A stretch of 64,000 nucleotides of DNA from an uncultured bacterium (GTDB lineage: Bacteria > Hydrogenedentota > Hydrogenedentia > Hydrogenedentales > CAILVY01). Below, piece after piece: positions 25,202-34,755 of the stretch. How positions within the stretch are numbered: position 1 is the stretch's first letter; every line of letters starts with the position of its first letter. A program made the position numbers and the translations under genes. The notes below the pieces were generated by a model. It saw only the letters and a program-made list of their open reading frames with translations, did not search any database and had not been told where the DNA came from. Location of the stretch: the NCBI GenBank assembly GCA_937951485.1, contig CALEDJ010000038.1, positions 62,001-126,000 of the forward strand, given 5' to 3'.

Positions 25202-27418
25202 GTGGACGACAGAACCCATTGGCTGACAAGAGTGCGTGTGAACACAAGCGAGCATCCAAAGAACGCCGAACCGCCAACCGGTCCGAAAGGATTTTGGGAG
25301 CGGCATGCCTGGCGGATACTCGTGCTTATCCTGCTGGCGGCGCTGGCATTGCGGCTGGCGTATCTGCGCGAAATCGTCGCGTCGCCGACGTTCACATACG
25401 CCGTTTATGACCCGCAATACAACGACTATTGGGCGCGGGGGCTGGTGACGGACGACTGGACCGTGCCGGAAGGCGTGAATGATCCGGAGATTCGCACGAC
25501 GCCCTATGGGCGACCGCCGGGCTATCCGTTTTTCCTCGCGCTGGTCTATCGCGTCTTCGGACTGAATTACCTCGCGCCGCGTCTGGTGCAGATGTATCTG
25601 GGTCTGATCAGCGCCGTGCTGCTGTTTGTTTTGGCGCGCGGCATCTTCGGCGCGGCGACAGCGTTGCTCGCGGCAGTGTTTTTCTCATGCTACTGGGTGT
25701 TTATTTATTTCGAGGGCGTGCTCACCTATCCCTCCGTGGTGGTGTGCCTGCTGCTCCTTATCATGATCGCGATTTCGGCGTGGTTACGGCAGCCCCATGC
25801 CGGCCGCGCGGTCATCGTCGGGCTGCTGATGGGTCTGTTCGCGTTGTTCCGGCCCAATGGATTGCTCTACGTGCCGGTGTTGGTCGTCTGGATGGGGTGG
25901 ACTTTGCGGCACCCGGACGCGCATTCCGGAGAATCCGTCAAACGGCCCGGCGTACAGCGGGCCTTCCGGCGGTCGGTCGCGGCGTTGGTGCTCGGGGTTG
26001 TCGTGCCGTTGGTGCCGGTGCTGGTGAGAAACTACGTCGTGGCCGGCGATTTCGTTTTCCTTTCTTCCTACGGCGGCTTGAATTTCTATGTGGGCAATCA
26101 CGCGGGGGCCGGCGGGGTGGAACCGCGGATTCCCGAACTGCCCGAACTGGCGGGCATCGAGAACTGGTCCTGTTTCGATTACCCGGCGATAGTGCGCGGC
26201 CTTGCTGTAAATATGGGCAGGGAGCACATCCGTTTTTCCGAGGCCAACGCTTATTTCTACCGAAAAGCCCTTGATTTCATCCGCCACGATCCCGTCGCAT
26301 TCCTGAAATTGACCGCGAAAAAAGCGTTGCTGTTCTGGGGACCGCGGGAAATCACCAACGACACCGTCTTGGAATGGGACAAGCGGCATTCGCCGCTGCT
26401 GCGTTGGCTGCCGGGATTCCCCTTCGCGCTGGGGACCTTTCTGTCCGGACTGTTGCTCTTTCTCCGTGACATGCGCATGGGCCGCACGCTTCCGCGCCCC
26501 GAATCACGCGCGACGGCTTGCGCCGCACTGTTGTTCATCGGCGCGTATTTCGTTTCCGTCGTGCCCTACTTCATCGCGGGGCGCTACCGCGTGCCGGTCA
26601 TCCCGTTCATGCTGTTGTTCAGCGCGTACGGCGCGCAGCGCATCGGGGCGATGGCGGCGGCGCGACAGTGGCGACAATGCACGCTGTGGCTGGGCGCGGC
26701 GGGCGCGCTGGTGGGGGTGTCATTCTGGAATCCCATGGGCTACGCACCATCCGAGGCGACATGGCATTTTCATCAGGCGATGGCGTACGCCGCGCGCCAG
26801 GATTGCCCGGCGGCCGCCGAACACTACCGGGAATGCATCGCCCTTGACCCCGCCAACGCCGCCGCACACAACAATCTCGGACGCATCCATTCGCGCCTGG
26901 GCGAACACGATGCCGCGCTGGCACTGTTTCAAGAGGCGCTGCGCCTGCGTCCGCAAGACCCGACCATCCGGAACAACCTCGGTTTTGAATTGCAGCAACT
27001 TGGCCGCACGGCTGAGGCTGTGGAGGAGTATGAGGCGGCGCTGCGCGCCGCGCCCCGGGCATATCTGCCGCGCGCCAATCTCATCAACGCGCTGACGGCG
27101 CTGGGCCGCGCCGACGAGGCCCTGCGACACGCCGCCGTCCTGCTGGAAACATATGGCCACACCGCCGCCGCGCAGAACGCCTGCGGGTATGCGTTCGCGC
27201 GCGCAGGCCGCGCCGAGGAGGCCGTGATGCGCTTCCGAGAAGCACTCCGCATCAACCCCCGCTTTGTCCCGGCGTGGGTCAACCTCGGCATGGCGCTGGA
27301 AAGCCTGGGGCGACGCGAGGAAGCCGCAGACGCCTACACGCAGGTTCTTGATCTGGAACCCACAAACGCCCACGTGCAGGAACGTCTGCGCGTCCTGCGA
27401 GCACAACTATCACCTTAA
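25202..27418 (+). CDS. GT-C membrane glycosyltransferase with C-terminal TPRs
   Basis: A 738-residue polytopic protein. About ten hydrophobic helices fill residues 38-500, with an acidic first loop (YDPQYNDYWARG) and the segment RPPGYPFFLALVYRVFG, hallmarks of the GT39/PMT-like GT-C superfamily. Such enzymes use polyprenyl-phosphate sugars and act on the periplasmic side. From about residue 520 to the end there are at least five TPR units (NAAAHNNLGRIHSRLGEHDA; PAWVNLGMALESLGRREEAA). The start at 25202 is a GTG; a GTG ten codons later is possible. The stop overlaps the convergent toxin-antitoxin remnant. It opens the surface-glycan region. Confidence 0.8.
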   Translation: MDDRTHWLTRVRVNTSEHPKNAEPPTGPKGFWERHAWRILVLILLAALALRLAYLREIVASPTFTYAVYDPQYNDYWARGLVTDDWTVPEGVNDPEIRTTPYGRPPGYPFFLALVYRVFGLNYLAPRLVQMYLGLISAVLLFVLARGIFGAATALLAAVFFSCYWVFIYFEGVLTYPSVVVCLLLLIMIAISAWLRQPHAGRAVIVGLLMGLFALFRPNGLLYVPVLVVWMGWTLRHPDAHSGESVKRPGVQRAFRRSVAALVLGVVVPLVPVLVRNYVVAGDFVFLSSYGGLNFYVGNHAGAGGVEPRIPELPELAGIENWSCFDYPAIVRGLAVNMGREHIRFSEANAYFYRKALDFIRHDPVAFLKLTAKKALLFWGPREITNDTVLEWDKRHSPLLRWLPGFPFALGTFLSGLLLFLRDMRMGRTLPRPESRATACAALLFIGAYFVSVVPYFIAGRYRVPVIPFMLLFSAYGAQRIGAMAAARQWRQCTLWLGAAGALVGVSFWNPMGYAPSEATWHFHQAMAYAARQDCPAAAEHYRECIALDPANAAAHNNLGRIHSRLGEHDAALALFQEALRLRPQDPTIRNNLGFELQQLGRTAEAVEEYEAALRAAPRAYLPRANLINALTALGRADEALRHAAVLLETYGHTAAAQNACGYAFARAGRAEEAVMRFREALRINPRFVPAWVNLGMALESLGRREEAADAYTQVLDLEPTNAHVQERLRVLRAQLSP

Positions 27419-27699
27419 AGCCAGTTGGCGACTCTCAATCCCGCAACGTGCCGGAATTCCCGCTCGTTGTTGGTGACCAGCACTGCGCCCTCCGCCACGG
27501 CATGCGCCGCTCCCAGCAGGTCCATCGGCCCAATCACCCCGCCCGCGCGCTCCAGCGCCTCCCAGCCACGCTCCGGTGGAAAAATCATCACCACGTCACG
27601 CACCTTGGTGATACACACCTCGTCCGAAGAAAACCGGTGTTCTTTGAGCAGGCGCACCGCCTGGCTGCCGCCATTGAGGAAGACCTTGGCTTTTTTCAC
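27415..27699 (-). pseudogene. VapB-VapC hybrid remnant (internal deletion)
   Basis: A 94-codon frame joins the first half of a VapB antitoxin to the last third of a VapC toxin. Residues 1-51 match the AbrB-like VapB pattern (KAKVFLNGGSQAVRLLKEHR, then DEVCITKVRDVVMIFPP and WEALERAG). Residues 55-94 match the end of a PIN domain (IGPMDLLGAAHAVAEGAVLV, then TNNEREFRHVAGLRVANW). The VapB tail and the first 90 or so residues of VapC, including the catalytic aspartate of the LLDTN motif, are missing. The GTG start at 27699 has AGGAG seven bases upstream and a promoter-like site, so it may still be expressed. No toxicity is expected. Confidence 0.75.
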
Positions 27700-27716
27700 G
27701 GCACACTCCTGAAAGT

Positions 27717-27746
27717 ATATACAAATTACACGGATCAAGATGTCAA
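27717..27746 (-). promoter_or_regulatory. Possible promoter of the vapB remnant
   Basis: On the minus strand TTGACA (27741-27746) is followed by an AT-rich stretch with TGTATA at 17 bp and TATATA at 19 bp spacing. It lies directly before the ribosome binding site of the remnant gene, leaving a very short leader. Confidence 0.4.
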
Positions 27747-27795: not shown

Positions 27796-28653
27796 ATGAA
27801 CGGACACATTTATACAAGCGCCAACCAGCGGGAGTGGCTGCGGGTGCTTCCCGACCTCGTCCGGGCGCGGGAACTGCTGCGCGATCTGATCTGGAAAGAC
27901 CTTCGCGCGCGGTACCGCTATGCCGTGATGGGATTCCTGTGGGCTGTTCTGGAACCCCTGGCGTTCACGCTGATCCTGGCATTCGTGTTTTCGGTTCTGC
28001 TGGCGGACAAGGCGGCGTTCTTGCGCCCCGACAACGGGCCGCCGTTCACGACGATGCTCTTGAGCGGGTTGATCTTCTGGCAATTCACGGCGACGGCGCT
28101 GGCGAGCGCAACGTTTTCGCTGGTGATCAACCAGAATCTTGTGAAAAAGGTGCATTTCGCGCGGGAGACCGTCCCGTTGGCGACGGTATGCGTGCCGCTG
28201 GTGAATCTTGGCGTGGGCTTCCTGTTGCTGCTGGGGGTGCATGTGCTGCTGGGCGGACGGCTGCATCCCGCACTGGTCTGGGTGCTGCCGGTGTTCGGCA
28301 TCCAATTCTCCCTGACAGCGGGATTGGCGCTGATCTTTTCCAGCGCCCATGTGCACTTTCGCGACGTGGGGAACATGGTCAATGTCGCCATTCTCTTCGG
28401 TTTCTACGCCTCGCCGGTGTTCTATCCGCTGGAGCGGGTGACCCAGTCCGGCGTGTTGCCGGCGTGGGCGGTGCATGCTTATCTGCTGAATCCCATGGCG
28501 GGACTGCTGACCGCCTACCGGCAAATCCTGTTTGACGGCCATTTCCCGGACTGGACGCTCCTGCTGTGGCCCGCCATGTTGGCGGGGCTGGTGCTTGTCG
28601 GCGGATCATGGCTTTTCCGGCGCGCAGCGCCGACCTTTTCGGATTACCTGTAA
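27796..28653 (+). CDS. Polysaccharide ABC exporter permease (Wzm/TagG family)
   Basis: A 285-residue ABC-2 type membrane protein. The N-terminal segment LLRDLIWKDLRARYRYAVMGFLW is the typical amphipathic lead-in of Wzm, KpsM and TagG permeases. About six transmembrane helices follow, ending with FRRAAPTFSDYL, where family members end in a similar F-x-x-xx-xFAD/Y phrase. It exports completed lipid-linked glycans with its ATPase partner. The ATG at 27796 is supported by the family start; an upstream open frame is the antisense of the vapB remnant. The stop overlaps the start of the ATPase gene (TAATG). Confidence 0.9.
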   Translation: MNGHIYTSANQREWLRVLPDLVRARELLRDLIWKDLRARYRYAVMGFLWAVLEPLAFTLILAFVFSVLLADKAAFLRPDNGPPFTTMLLSGLIFWQFTATALASATFSLVINQNLVKKVHFARETVPLATVCVPLVNLGVGFLLLLGVHVLLGGRLHPALVWVLPVFGIQFSLTAGLALIFSSAHVHFRDVGNMVNVAILFGFYASPVFYPLERVTQSGVLPAWAVHAYLLNPMAGLLTAYRQILFDGHFPDWTLLLWPAMLAGLVLVGGSWLFRRAAPTFSDYL

Positions 28654-30737
28654 TGCCCATCATCGAAGTGGACCATGTGACCAAGGTGTTCCCGGCGCGG
28701 CGCGGCGCGCGCGACATCCGGGGACGCGGCGGTCTGGCCGACTGGATTCGCGGACGGAAGACGGAGACGTTCGAGGCGCTGAAAGATATCAGCCTGTCGG
28801 TCGAGCGTGGGGAATCGCTGGGCATCATCGGTCGGAATGGCTCCGGAAAAAGCACCCTGCTCAGCCTCATCGCGGGGGTAACACTGCCCACACGCGGCAC
28901 GGTCACCGTTCGCGGGCGCGTCGCCTCGTTACTGGAACTGGGCGCCGGCTTTCATCCCATCCTGACCGGACGCGAGAATGTTTATCTGAATGCCGGCCTG
29001 CTCGGCATGCGCCGCGCGCAAGTGGACGAAGTTTTTGACCGTATCGTGGCGTTTTCAGGCATCGCTGAATTCATTGATCAGCCGGTCGAAACCTACAGCA
29101 GCGGCATGTATGTGCGCATCGGTTTCGCCGTGGCCGCTCATGTCAACCCCGATGTTTTTCTCGTGGACGAGGTCCTGTCCGTCGGCGACGAGGAATTCCA
29201 GCGCAAATGCCGCGCGCGCATCAGTGCGTTGCGCGAAGAAGGCAAGACCATCGTCTTCGTCTCGCATGATCTCGGTATTGTGAACACCCTCTGCGACCGG
29301 GTGGTGCTCCTGGACAAGGGCCGGATGGTTCTGCGCGAGAGCGCGCGCAAGACCATCAGTTTCTATCTGCGCCAGGTCGGCCGCGAACGCGGCGTGCACA
29401 CCTTCGCCGCAGGTCCCCTGGAGGCCATCCTCTGCGAAGGCCGTATCTCACTCTTCCACAATCAGGAGGAACTCACCGCGCCGGATGGCTTCGCCATGTT
29501 TGTCCAATCGCTGGGGCGCCTGCACGCCTCGACGGAAGCGGATTGGGTTCTGACCCGGCGTGACCCTGACGGTTGCACCGCCGAGGGGCGCATGATGCGC
29601 CTGCCCCTCAAATACTTCTGGGACCTTCAACTCACCCCCGACCGTCTCACCTGGCACATCGCCGTGGAGTGCGAACGCGAAACGCCCATGAACAGCCTCG
29701 ACGTACGGCTCACCCTGACCACCGCGTTCACCCGTTGGATGTTGGGCGACTTGTCGGGGGTTTTCCCGGAAATCCGTCCCTCAGACACCCTCTGGAACAT
29801 GCTCGTGTGGCCTTCGGACACGCCCCTCGACGATACCCGCGCCGCCATCCTGCCGGAGGAGGAAAACGAAGCCGTTCCCCGCCTGATCTTCCGCACCACC
29901 CCGCTGCGGCCGCATTTCAACCTCTACTGGGTGAACTCCGACTATGCCGCCTACTGCCGGATTCTGTTCATTCACACCCGATTCCCCGACAAGGACGCCG
30001 GACTGCCTCCCGGTCGCCATGAACTGCTGCGTGTCGAGATTGAGCCGGCGGCGGGTCGGGACCTCCTGTGGCGACGCCTCTCCCCCGACCGGACCATCAG
30101 CGCCGGAAAAGTGTCCGCTTGTTTCGAGCGTGGCTGGCTGAAACTGGCCTACGACGGCCGCGAAATCACCGCGCTTATCCATGTCTTTTCCTCAATGCTT
30201 GTACAACACCTCTGGAACGACAGCCACACATTGCATTGGGGCGAGGTGCAGAATGACGGCCGATGCCTGCGCGTCAGCGGCGAGTCGCGCCGTTTCCCGT
30301 TTTTCCAGCATTGGGAAGCGGAGGCGCGCGAAGACGGCATTTTTCTGCGCATATGGCTGGAGGCGGTCGAAGCGCTGGACGCCCAGGAATACCAGGCATC
30401 CGTAGTGCTGTTACCGGAGTACAGGGCGTGGCGTTCCGACTACGAGGAAGGTGTGTTCCCGCCGTTTGACGCCAAAGCCGACAAATGGCGGCATCTGAAT
30501 AAGATCTACCTCCCCGGCAAACGCCTCAGCGCCTTGAGTTCCACGTTACCATCTGTTACGCTTGAGGTTACAAACGACGCAATGCAGTTCCGAATGACCC
30601 CGATCAACACCCGGCGACAAGAAAACGCCCGGGTATTGCAGGCTTTGTGTTCCTCGGAATCGGGTGTCTTTCATTTCGATCGCGGGCGGCATCTCATCTT
30701 TGAAGGAATGATCCGGATAGCGCCCCCAGGGAGTTGA
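28653..30737 (+). CDS. Wzt-like ABC exporter ATPase with duplicated C-terminal module
   Basis: A 694-residue protein. Residues 1-245 are a Wzt/TagH-type ATPase: Walker A GRNGSGKS (60-67), signature YSSGM (148-152), Walker B FLVDE (169-173) and switch histidine H205. Wzt proteins usually add a glycan-binding domain of about 180 residues. Here the C-terminal part is about 440 residues and appears to be two tandem copies (about 256-465 and 485-690) of one module. Matching anchor points are the E-L/I-TA turn, a central W, C308/C538, the RLP/RFP step and W323/W554, and both end in an RH-L motif (455-458; 679-681). I do not recognise the module. It probably binds the exported glycan, by analogy with Wzt. 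Confidence 0.85.
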   Translation: MPIIEVDHVTKVFPARRGARDIRGRGGLADWIRGRKTETFEALKDISLSVERGESLGIIGRNGSGKSTLLSLIAGVTLPTRGTVTVRGRVASLLELGAGFHPILTGRENVYLNAGLLGMRRAQVDEVFDRIVAFSGIAEFIDQPVETYSSGMYVRIGFAVAAHVNPDVFLVDEVLSVGDEEFQRKCRARISALREEGKTIVFVSHDLGIVNTLCDRVVLLDKGRMVLRESARKTISFYLRQVGRERGVHTFAAGPLEAILCEGRISLFHNQEELTAPDGFAMFVQSLGRLHASTEADWVLTRRDPDGCTAEGRMMRLPLKYFWDLQLTPDRLTWHIAVECERETPMNSLDVRLTLTTAFTRWMLGDLSGVFPEIRPSDTLWNMLVWPSDTPLDDTRAAILPEEENEAVPRLIFRTTPLRPHFNLYWVNSDYAAYCRILFIHTRFPDKDAGLPPGRHELLRVEIEPAAGRDLLWRRLSPDRTISAGKVSACFERGWLKLAYDGREITALIHVFSSMLVQHLWNDSHTLHWGEVQNDGRCLRVSGESRRFPFFQHWEAEAREDGIFLRIWLEAVEALDAQEYQASVVLLPEYRAWRSDYEEGVFPPFDAKADKWRHLNKIYLPGKRLSALSSTLPSVTLEVTNDAMQFRMTPINTRRQENARVLQALCSSESGVFHFDRGRHLIFEGMIRIAPPGS

Positions 30738-30742
30738 CGTTC

Positions 30743-32080
30743 ATGGACCCGGTAACCGCGGAAAACGCCGTGGGCGCGGATTGCCCGAACCCCATCGCCG
30801 CAGCATCCGCTGCGCCCTTGCAAGTCGCGCATGGATGCCGGAAAACCACGCGGCGCGTGCTTACCCGGCGCGGGGTGATGTGGCTCGGCCAGACCTGCAA
30901 TCTTCGCTGCTACTTCTGCTACTTCATTGACCGCATCGAGGACCACAAGCATCCCGAGCACGCGTTCATGACCCTCCAGAAAGCCAAGCAAATCTGCAAG
31001 GCGCTGCGCGAGTTCTACGGCAACACCGCCATTGACATCCAGGGCGGCGAGCCGACCATCCACAAAGAAATCCTGGAACTTATCCGCTACTGCCGTGAAA
31101 TCGGCCTGATTCCCACCCTCATCACCAATGGCCTGATCCTGGGAAAGCCCGGCAAACTGGAGGAATTCCGCGACGCGGGCATCCGCGATTTCCTGGTCAG
31201 CCTCCATGGCATCGGCGAACTGCACAATGAAGTCGTGCGCGTGAAAGGCGCCTACGAGAAAATCATCGCGGCCATCGAGCGCATGCGCGCCCTCGACATC
31301 CCCTTTCGCTTCAACTGCACCATGTCCAAGCCGGTGATCCCCGTGCTGACGCAGGTCGCCCAGAAGGCGATTGATTACGGGGCGCTTGTCGTCAACTTCA
31401 TCGCGTTCAACCCTTTCAGCGACCAATTCGGGCATCGCCGCGCCGACACCGTCGCCCGCTATGCCGATATCAAACCGGAACTCACCCGTGCGATGGACAT
31501 GCTGGAGGCGGCGGGCATCGAGGTCAATGTGCGCTATCTCCCCCTGTGCATGGCCGAAGAGCGCCACCGCAAAAACTTCTTCAACTTCCAGCAACTTTCC
31601 TACGACATCCACGAATGGGATTACCAGAGTTGGCTCTGGACCATGATGATGACCCAGATGATGCGGGACGGCAACCCCTCGCCCCTGTTCCGACTCGGTC
31701 CCGGCGCAAGCCGCATCTACAAGGGCGGCGCGATGCGCATCCGCGACAACTACGAGAAACATCCGCTGCGGCAGGGAGTGAAATTCGCCGCGCAGCGCGC
31801 CCTGGCGCGCATCTATCAGGCGGCGCGCGGCATGCCCGCCGTCTATCGCGAGGAAGCCCGCCGCCGCGCCGAGCACGACTGCGGCTACAAATACGCGGAG
31901 GCTTGCCAATCGTGCGCGGCCCGGAACATCTGTGACGGATTCCACGGCGATTACGCCGAATTCTTCGGAACCGACGAGGCCCGGCCCATCACCGGCATCG
32001 CGCCCATTGACGACCCGCTCCACTATATCCGCAACCAGGAAAAAGTCGTCTTTCCCGAGGATGCCTCCTGGGCGCTGTGA
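30743..32080 (+). CDS. Radical SAM protein with SPASM-like C-terminus
   Basis: A 445-residue radical SAM enzyme. The cluster loop is CNLRCYFC (C52, C56, C59), followed by the GGEP motif (101-104) and further TIM-barrel strands. A cysteine-rich C-terminus (C380, C388, C391, C397) resembles SPASM or twitch auxiliary-cluster sites. Such enzymes modify peptides, carbohydrates or nucleotide substrates by radical chemistry. The ATG at 30743 has GGGAG upstream; a TTG overlapping the ATPase stop is an alternative. It follows the exporter genes within 6 bp and shares clear similarity with the next gene. The substrate is unknown. Confidence 0.88.
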   Translation: MDPVTAENAVGADCPNPIAAASAAPLQVAHGCRKTTRRVLTRRGVMWLGQTCNLRCYFCYFIDRIEDHKHPEHAFMTLQKAKQICKALREFYGNTAIDIQGGEPTIHKEILELIRYCREIGLIPTLITNGLILGKPGKLEEFRDAGIRDFLVSLHGIGELHNEVVRVKGAYEKIIAAIERMRALDIPFRFNCTMSKPVIPVLTQVAQKAIDYGALVVNFIAFNPFSDQFGHRRADTVARYADIKPELTRAMDMLEAAGIEVNVRYLPLCMAEERHRKNFFNFQQLSYDIHEWDYQSWLWTMMMTQMMRDGNPSPLFRLGPGASRIYKGGAMRIRDNYEKHPLRQGVKFAAQRALARIYQAARGMPAVYREEARRRAEHDCGYKYAEACQSCAARNICDGFHGDYAEFFGTDEARPITGIAPIDDPLHYIRNQEKVVFPEDASWAL

Positions 32081-32193
32081 ACGACACAGGACGCTATTTG
32101 GAAAGCGCATGAGGGAAGGGAGTCGCGGGGGGATTGGCGTATTGGGGGGCGGGTTGTTGCACAATAACAAGGCTCTTGCAGGACTTCCGTGGC

Positions 32194-32233
32194 ATGGGCG
32201 TATCGCCCATAAAACACGGGCAGGATGCCCGTG
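32194..32233. repeat. Paired short palindromes
   Basis: Two nearly adjacent perfect palindromes occupy the gap before the next gene: ATGGGCG-TAT-CGCCCAT (32194-32210) and CACGGGCA-GGA-TGCCCGTG (32215-32233). They lie within an open frame continuous with the downstream gene, but look like dispersed intergenic repeats, not coding sequence. Confidence 0.65.
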
Positions 32234-32280
32234 CTCTATTGGATAACGGAAGGTTCTGCAAAAGCCTCTTATGGCAGGAC

Positions 32281-34650
32281 ATGAACGCATATTCTGAGAT
32301 GGACCAACCCTTGCATCCCACGCGCGGGCTGATGGCCACGCACGACGCGCATGGCCGTCCTTTCGACCTGACAGACCTCAAGAAGTGGCTTCGACTGCAT
32401 GCGGTCGTGTTCCACACGGAAAAGATAGACGTGCGCCCTGCAGGCGAAGGCGTCCGCCTGCTGCCCGCGCTGCTGGATTTCGCCCGTCAGAACGGCGTCC
32501 GGCTTTCCCTGCGCACCGATGGAACCCACGATCCCGTCATGCTGCCCGCATTGGCCGAGGCCGGGCTGCTGGACGTATTCTGCGCCATGCCGGCCTGCGA
32601 CGGCGGCCTCATCGCCCGATGGGCGGCAGCCTGTGCGGACGCCGGGCTGGCGTTGCGGGTGCAAATCGGCGCGCCGCTGCCCGAACAAGAGAACATTGAA
32701 GCCGCCGTGAAACGTCTGGCCGGGGCCGCCGTGGTGAACATCACGCTCCATGATCCCTTTGCGCCCGCGCCGCCGTTGCGGGGCGAGACCGCATCCGCCG
32801 CCCTGCGGAACATGAACGCGCTGGCGCGCGCGCTGGATGCGCGCGGCGTGGAAGTCAACCTCCTGCATGCGCCGTTTTGCCTGATCGCGGAAGAGAACCG
32901 GCCACATGTCGTCAACTCGGCGCAATTTTTCCTTGACCATCAGCACTATGACCGGCGCGCTTATGATTTTGCAGTCAACATCCACGCGCGCGGCCCAAGG
33001 CGGCTGGGCAAGGCCGTCGAAAACATGCTCAGCCGGGGAATGGCCGTGGACAGCCCTTTCCACCATAGCGTGCTCCCGTGGCTGCTGCATCATCCCCTTC
33101 TTCTTATGCGTCTGTGGGTCTTGCATCAACTGACGCGGCATCTTCAGTTGCTGCGGGGTCCGCGCCCGCTGCCGGAGACCGTCGAGGAATGGGAAGCCGC
33201 GATTGAAGCCCACCGCAGGCGCCACCGCAGGAACCTCGGCCCCGTCTGCGCCGCGTGCCGCTTCCAGCGCATCTGCGACCACGCCCCGGAGGAATTCCGC
33301 CGCCGATACCCCGACCTCCAGATCGCCGCCGTGCCGGGCGAAGAAGTGATATCGCCTTTCCATCTCATGCGGGGGCGCAAGCGTTATTATGACGCAGTGG
33401 ATGCCGCGCGCCGGGAACTGCCGAAAATCCAGGAGGCATTGGCCGAGGAAGCGCGCCGCATCACCCTGCGCGAAGCGCCCACCCGTGAAATCACCGCCGA
33501 TCACTACGAGATTGAGAACCATTACACCCACCACATGCCCGGCGCGGTGCGCTGGCTTTCCTTTCTCAACGTCGAACACTGCAGCACGCCGCTGGCGCGA
33601 CTCACCCCGCCCTTCACCATGCAACTCACCTTCGGCGGCGGCATCGCCGGGCACATCGGCTTCAGTTTCGGGCGTCACGCCAAGATTCTCTGCCCGATGG
33701 TGGACTATTCGCACCGTCTCACGCTGCACGTGGATGAATTCGGGCGCTACGTTCTGCTGCGCGACGGCGTCCTCGTGCGTCCAACCGAGTTCGAGGGCGC
33801 GCGCTGCCTGCCTCCTCGCATCGGCGACAACGTCGAACCGCGCATCTGTATCCATAACATAGACGGGTTCCTCCTCACGCAGACCCTGCTGCTCTGGGAA
33901 GGCCGCCGCGACGCCGACGGCGCCCTCGCCGAACATGTCCCCGAAATGACAAGGATCAAATATTCCGTCGTCATCATCTGCACGCGTTACACGCGGCGAC
34001 TTCAGGCGACGCTCCTCGGGCTGGCCCATCAGCGCGGCTTCGACATGCGCGCCCTCGAAGTTGTCATCGGCTATGTGCCCGGCATTGACGCTACCGACGA
34101 CCTCATTGACAGCATGCGCCGCGCCTGCCCCGAACTGCGCATCGTCCGCATGCCCTTCTCCGAAGACCACGTCCGCGCCAAGGGATTCATGATCAACGAG
34201 TCGCGGCGCATCGCCGCCGGCGACTGGATCGTCCTGCTCGACGCCGACATCATCCTCCCGCCCGATTTCTTCGTCCGCATGGAGACCCTTGGGGAAGACG
34301 CGCGCTTCGTCGCGCCCGACGGCCGGAAAATGCTCACGCCCGATGACACGGCCCGGGTGCTGCTCGGTCGGATTCGGCCTTGGGAATGCTTTGAGGAACT
34401 GGCTGCCGGCGCGGGCGAATACCGCTTCCGCGAGGCCGACCGCGTGCCCATCGGCTTCTGCCAGTGCGTGCGCCGGGATATTCTGGAAAAGATTCCCTAC
34501 CATGAACGGGATCACTTCGAGGCGTCCGACTGGTGGTTCGGGCATTGCGTCATCAAGGAATACGGCCCCGAAACCCGACTCGAAGGCGTTGTCGTCCTCC
34601 ATCTCGACCACGGCGGCAGCCAATGGTACGGCGCTTTCAAGCACATGTAA
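32281..34650 (+). CDS. Pseudo-radical SAM protein fused to GT2 glycosyltransferase
   Basis: A 789-residue protein in three parts. Residues 1-370 are a paralogue of the preceding radical SAM protein. They share GVEVNLLHAPFCLIAEE (GIEVNVRYLPLCMAEE in the partner) and the terminal CAACRFQRICDH (CQSCAARNICDG), but the cluster loop CxxxCxxC and the GGEP motif are absent. Residues about 405-545 are a beta-rich domain I cannot name. Residues about 560-789 are a family 2 glycosyltransferase with YSVVIICTRY, the DAD motif (654-656) and a late FEASDWWFGH. The start at 32281 is the first after the palindromes; 32299 and 32332 are alternatives. The fusion suggests glycosylation of the product of the active partner. 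Confidence 0.8.
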   Translation: MNAYSEMDQPLHPTRGLMATHDAHGRPFDLTDLKKWLRLHAVVFHTEKIDVRPAGEGVRLLPALLDFARQNGVRLSLRTDGTHDPVMLPALAEAGLLDVFCAMPACDGGLIARWAAACADAGLALRVQIGAPLPEQENIEAAVKRLAGAAVVNITLHDPFAPAPPLRGETASAALRNMNALARALDARGVEVNLLHAPFCLIAEENRPHVVNSAQFFLDHQHYDRRAYDFAVNIHARGPRRLGKAVENMLSRGMAVDSPFHHSVLPWLLHHPLLLMRLWVLHQLTRHLQLLRGPRPLPETVEEWEAAIEAHRRRHRRNLGPVCAACRFQRICDHAPEEFRRRYPDLQIAAVPGEEVISPFHLMRGRKRYYDAVDAARRELPKIQEALAEEARRITLREAPTREITADHYEIENHYTHHMPGAVRWLSFLNVEHCSTPLARLTPPFTMQLTFGGGIAGHIGFSFGRHAKILCPMVDYSHRLTLHVDEFGRYVLLRDGVLVRPTEFEGARCLPPRIGDNVEPRICIHNIDGFLLTQTLLLWEGRRDADGALAEHVPEMTRIKYSVVIICTRYTRRLQATLLGLAHQRGFDMRALEVVIGYVPGIDATDDLIDSMRRACPELRIVRMPFSEDHVRAKGFMINESRRIAAGDWIVLLDADIILPPDFFVRMETLGEDARFVAPDGRKMLTPDDTARVLLGRIRPWECFEELAAGAGEYRFREADRVPIGFCQCVRRDILEKIPYHERDHFEASDWWFGHCVIKEYGPETRLEGVVVLHLDHGGSQWYGAFKHM

Positions 34651-34755
34651 GCGACGGAACAAACCCAGGCGTATCCGTCATCGCAGCGGTGCAGACCTCT
34701 GGCACGCGACTGGCGTTGACAGGGTGCGGTTTTCTTTGGCACTTCCAAAGGAGAT

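Follow-up and report, generated by a model that had tools for sequence, protein, structure and literature searches.

A predicted pseudo-radical-SAM domain fused to a GT2 glycosyltransferase in a glycan export gene cluster of Hydrogenedentota

The window (the whole stretch of DNA analysed, 64,000 nucleotides long, from an uncultured bacterium of the Hydrogenedentota) carries on its plus strand genes for a Wzm-like ABC-2 membrane subunit (27796..28653; ABC2_membrane, 1.7e-13), a Wzt-like ATPase of an ABC transporter, extended at its C-terminus by about 450 residues (28653..30737; ABC_tran, 2.9e-20), a predicted active radical SAM (rSAM) enzyme, here called P0002 (30743..32080; Pfam Radical_SAM PF04055, 5.4e-22), and a 789-aa protein, P0001 (32281..34650). 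The starts of the two transporter genes were inferred, from homologues in the case of Wzm. The ABC2_membrane and ABC_tran matches were above cut-off, and matches to TagH/Wzt-type NCBIfam families were below the curated cut-offs. P0002 contains the motifs CNLRCYFC (30896-30919), GGEP (31043-31054) and CX2CX5C (31904-31933), all on the plus strand. As predicted from these genes, the context of P0001 is Wzm-Wzt glycan export.

Several other features of this region were recorded. The Wzt extension (approximately residues 240-695 of the protein encoded at 28653-30737) had no Pfam match and is shared by the majority of the phylum's Wzt homologues; by eye it may be a pair of repeated beta domains, potentially able to read the end of a glycan. 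Between the rSAM gene and P0001, at 32196-32233, lies a REP-like element with two palindromes, GGGCGTATCGCCC and CACGGGCAGGATGCCCGTG, of which the genome has five copies when up to 2 mismatches are allowed; the reversed pattern gave none. A short minus-strand ORF just upstream of the Wzm gene (27415-27738) resembles, by eye, a DUF5615- or PIN-like toxin-antitoxin protein. The long antisense ORFs of the minus strand, among them those at 30671-32290 and 32269-34662, were set aside as reading-frame shadows of GC-rich genes.

P0001 is composed of an N-terminal domain (approximately residues 1-400, 32281..33480), delimited by profile comparison with the active rSAM family and by predicted secondary structure, a beta-rich middle domain that has no Pfam match (residues 402-557, 33484..33951), and a GT2 glycosyltransferase domain (residues 558-789, 33952..34647); homologues have the same length and architecture. 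The sole Pfam match of the protein was PF13641 in the C-terminal third (E 6.4e-11, 43.1 bits, cut-off 27), residues 1-400 gave nothing above chance against Pfam and NCBIfam, and Radical_SAM PF04055 did not match P0001 at E values up to 1. The DxD motif of the GT2 domain is DAD in P0001 (residues 654-656, 34240-34248), and D-x-D is found at the same place in the aligned homologues. In a structure search the domain matched the GT-A fold of 9jn3 (Z 22.7, rmsd 2.4, 195 residues), and the GT2 enzymes AvpGT, TarS, TarP, RmlT, WrtF and K4 chondroitin polymerase share this fold (Z about 20-23) and the DxD, although none of the listed matches reaches into the rSAM-derived N-domain; GlfT2, which heads the Foldseek list, gave a longer alignment with a high rmsd. 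The GT2 domain is therefore apparently intact, as predicted from its motifs and fold. Because GT2 matches took up the list when the complete fusion was used as query, the search is silent on the folds of the N and middle domains, and a PDB sequence search with the N-domain profile returned chance matches only. A homology between the middle domain and the Wzt extension was considered and dropped, as profile comparison found none.

The N-domain is a relative of the enzyme encoded directly upstream. BLASTP of the first 430 residues of P0001 against P0002 gave 24% identity over residues 148-376 (E 5e-8), an alignment that includes both GVEVNLLHAPFCLIAEE and CAACRFQRICDH, the two stretches that the original prediction had described as shared with the active partner. 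A first profile-profile comparison of the N-domain with the P0002 family gave a probability of 98.3% (E 2.6e-14, 316 columns) with homology from about residue 29 to 375, and hhalign of 73 pseudo-domains against 48 active enzymes gave 99.5% (E 6.2e-23, 341 columns). The previously proposed alignment covers residues 1-370 and omits the rest of the 789-residue ORF. As the hhalign E values are those of single comparisons, the argument rests on the controls: a reversed rSAM profile scored 0.2% against the N-domain profile, two other rSAM families of the same gene clusters 4.6% and 0.9%, the GT4 profile 0.2% and the Wzt profile 0.1%. These low scores identify the N-domain as a specific relative of the P0002 family, and on the profile evidence it is a true paralogue of that family; a derivation from the SPASM-type rSAMs that adjoin fusions in other genomes received no support from hhalign. 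In the AF2 model of P0001 (pLDDT 78) strands and helices alternate in the N-domain, and the seven beta strands follow the order that the barrel of the active enzyme would be expected to have. The AF2 model of P0002 itself (pLDDT 55) was too poor for use.

The catalytic site of this barrel is missing. It was found that P0001 has neither CxxxCxxC nor GGEP, as originally predicted, with AGEG at the GGEP position. The beta1 to alpha1 segment RGLMATHDAHGRPFDLTDLKKW (residues 15-36, 32323..32388), which occupies the place of the CxxxCxxC loop of the active enzyme, is shortened and cysteine-free; the beta1-cluster-loop segment of that enzyme has no counterpart in the P0001 alignment, and RGLMATHDAHGRPFDL stands there. 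None of the 73 full-length homologues (0/73) has CxxxCxxC at the beta1 position, so the homologues do not keep the cluster motif that P0001 lacks. The only match to the pattern among them (in L086) falls within the C-terminal motif, and the GGEP position is variable.

In contrast to the lost site, four cysteines have been retained, namely C200 of an APFC sequence (32878..32880) and C323, C326 and C332 of a partial SPASM-like motif, C-x2-C-x5-C (33247..33276). The C-terminal half of P0002 has five family-invariant cysteines, of which C269, C388, C391 and C397 are the counterparts of these four and C380 has none. All four were present in 61 of the 73 homologues; of the remaining 12, nine lack all four, L116 keeps two, and L142 and L143 keep the first only. 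The presence of C200 is associated with that of the other three (Fisher p 2e-9, with relatedness ignored), and on the tree the pattern requires five state changes, at least four of them forced by well-supported branches, so that the association reflects several events. With the tree rooted on L184, which has a very long branch, the root falls among four-cysteine sequences, and the set of four is thus probably ancestral. The joint loss of the cysteines suggests that they form a single common site, which may hold an Fe-S cluster or zinc. The SPASM motif has seven cysteines, CX9-15GX4C...CX2CX5CX3C...C (PMC5715301). P0001 shares with SPASM/Twitch enzymes such as PqqE and anSME the CX2CX5C that is part of this auxiliary-cluster motif (PMC5715301), but, unlike them, it lacks CX3CX2C, has no more than three of the seven SPASM cysteines alongside the one upstream in PFC, and gave no Pfam match to SPASM (PF13186). 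The description of the cysteines as SPASM-like therefore holds for CX2CX5C and the upstream PFC cysteine and not for a seven-cysteine SPASM, and the set in P0002 is equally partial. What had been noticed in a single protein, an rSAM fold that lost its cluster and kept other cysteines, is conserved in this form across the phylum.

The fusion was found in 62/68 Hydrogenedentota genomes and in 38/38 of those of high quality, compared to 48/68 and 26/38 for the P0002-type rSAM, such that 12/38 high-quality genomes have the fusion without this rSAM. In nine close pairs of homologues the dN/dS of the N-domain was 0.10-0.27, higher than that of the middle domain (0.02-0.13) and of GT2 (0.02-0.18) yet far below 1, which indicates a maintained domain; from these values and its distribution, the pseudo-rSAM domain is predicted to be an old, constrained pseudoenzyme and not one decayed copy. 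All fusion loci matched in a public genome collection were from Candidatus Hydrogenedentota/Hydrogenedentes MAGs, and the genome that contains the window is grouped with these. When other bacterial genomes were sampled, the pseudo-domain profile matched active P0002-type rSAMs only. P0002-type rSAMs were present in a few of these other genomes (G090, G100, G302, G428 and G463); in other phyla, near-full-length P0002 relatives exist unaccompanied by the pseudo-domain.

A P0002-type rSAM gene lies directly upstream of the fusion in 19 of 76 cases, several of them overlapping, and a GT4 gene directly downstream in 24 of 76; most of the 76 fusions are not adjacent to a P0002-type rSAM, and some adjoin SPASM-type rSAMs instead. 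The P0002-type rSAM usually comes after Wzt, and the order Wzm-Wzt-rSAM is conserved in the phylum; a strict-gap script counted Wzt followed by rSAM in 26/51, a figure lowered by several misses at contig ends or at ORFs whose starts were over-extended. The genome that contains the window has a paralogue of the fusion (contig C17:41719-43974; L002, L019), which is one of those next to SPASM-type rSAMs: it has lost all four cysteines and adjoins two such genes and a GT4 gene. A protein of 150-220 aa that has not been assigned to a family often follows the fusion and GT4 (for example L019 13250-13744; context clusters 4 and 11), and one small protein of these clusters had no match in Pfam or NCBIfam.

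In another phylum, the order Wzm-Wzt-rSAM-[N domain-middle-GT2] recurs in L184, the middle and GT2 domains of which match at E 2.7e-120; its N-domain, used as a single-sequence query, had no detectable homology to the pseudo-rSAM and is not recognisable as an rSAM. More distant relatives of P0002 are themselves joined to glycosyltransferases. L186 (7905-9392) and L187 (7789-9117) have a glycosyltransferase-2-like domain in front of an rSAM with intact CxxxCxxC, and in L198 (7520-16001) an open frame that encodes at least 2827 aa begins with an rSAM, behind which come GT2, GT4 and GT9 domains and TPR repeats. These rSAM-glycosyltransferase fusions argue that the P0002 class of rSAMs works jointly with glycosyltransferases.

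A pseudoenzyme of this kind has been recognised before, in that the curators of the haloarchaeal family TIGR04347 (NCBIfam) name it a radical-SAM-derived pseudo-SAM/SPASM protein. However, TIGR04347 did not match P0001 at E values up to 1 and is not described as fused to GT2. No fusion of a dead rSAM to GT2 turned up in the literature searched, which was mostly open access with few subscription journals, and the terms pseudo-rSAM, pseudo-radical SAM and inactive radical SAM were absent from the open-access literature searched.

The original prediction proposed a recognition or chaperone subunit for the active enzyme and did not take in the fused GT2. With GT2 attached, a free chaperone subunit becomes less likely as the role, and a domain that acts on the glycosyltransferase more likely. 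The reading that we prefer, at a probability of roughly 50%, is that the dead P0002 paralogue on GT2 is a docking or acceptor-binding module that couples sugar transfer with radical modification of the glycan before export. The barrel would no longer bind SAM, would retain a C-terminal cysteine-bound site (Fe-S cluster or zinc), and would serve GT2 for docking or acceptor binding. The pseudo-barrel could place the growing surface glycan beside the GT2 site and, in clusters like that of P0001 and P0002, would probably bring the active rSAM enzyme there as well; sugar transfer would then be coupled to radical modification of the glycan, followed by Wzm-Wzt export. The pseudo-rSAM would thus probably steer glycan building rather than carry out radical chemistry. 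In ABC-transporter-dependent O-antigen systems, the gene of a WbdD-type chain-modification enzyme directly follows Wzm-Wzt, with glycosyltransferase genes adjoining, and the proposed scheme parallels the pairs of modification enzyme and polymerase of these systems. The P0001 cluster resembles them in its modification gene after Wzm-Wzt, the neighbouring glycosyltransferases and the C-terminal extension of Wzt, but the putative modification enzyme is a radical SAM enzyme and its dead copy lies inside a glycosyltransferase. Counted against the preferred reading are the N-domain of L184, with its lack of detectable pseudo-rSAM homology, and the loss of the cysteines in some lineages.

It is plausible that the N-domain docks to P0002. 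The 19 directly upstream rSAM genes and the specific paralogy to P0002 favour such a role, whereas the presence of the fusion in all good genomes but of the P0002-type rSAM in only 26 of the 38, as well as the P0002 relatives elsewhere that have no pseudo-domain, are against it. Docking to the rSAM is thus favoured in clusters of the P0001 type and cannot be general, as about a third of the good genomes have no P0002-type rSAM, and an obligate rSAM partner is unlikely given these 12 genomes and the many non-adjacent fusions. The same observations lend some weight to the possibility, which we consider less probable than the preferred reading although the strongest of its competitors, that the pseudo-barrel does no more than bind an acceptor or donor for GT2, any tie to a radical SAM enzyme having been lost, and that co-location with rSAM genes reflects only the clustering of surface-glycan genes: the rSAM is patchier than the fusion and mostly not its neighbour, GT4 follows in 24 of 76, and lineages that lack the rSAM (G028-G030 and G033-G036) still have four-cysteine forms. 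What this leaves unaccounted for is that the rSAM directly upstream in the 19 cases belongs to the very family from which the N-domain descends, and that, outside the phylum, genes of P0002 relatives are joined to GT2 genes or lie next to them.

The match of the four cysteines to those of the active enzyme, and their being usually kept or lost together, would also fit a sensor in which an Fe-S cluster lets the glycosyltransferase respond to redox state or oxygen and the barrel serves as scaffold; this is unlikely, since L142-L144 and L133/L134 have lost all or nearly all of the cysteines and keep the fusion under similar constraint. Slightly less likely still is that the pseudo-rSAM lends a cysteine-bound cluster in trans to the active rSAM, as a heteromeric electron-transfer or positioning subunit of a split rSAM-glycosyltransferase machine that would modify the glycan during polymerisation. 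That P0001 is an unusual active radical SAM enzyme, binding SAM via a cluster on the retained cysteines, is very improbable: these cysteines occupy the auxiliary positions of the partner and not those of its CxxxCxxC, both the cluster loop and GGEP have been lost without being restored in any homologue, and there is no Pfam Radical_SAM match. A single recently decayed copy is the least credible explanation and can practically be dismissed, because the loss is common to the 73 full-length homologues across the phylum and the N-domain is under constraint in close pairs.

Radical SAM pseudoenzymes have been little studied, and the Hydrogenedentota appear to have a phylum-wide example that is joined to a glycosyltransferase and whose gene often lies beside that of its active paralogue. 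The fusion makes testable both the role of a dead rSAM barrel with retained cysteines and the use of radical chemistry on surface polysaccharides, and the rSAM-glycosyltransferase fusions of other phyla suggest that there is a class of glycan-linked rSAM enzymes still to be characterised.
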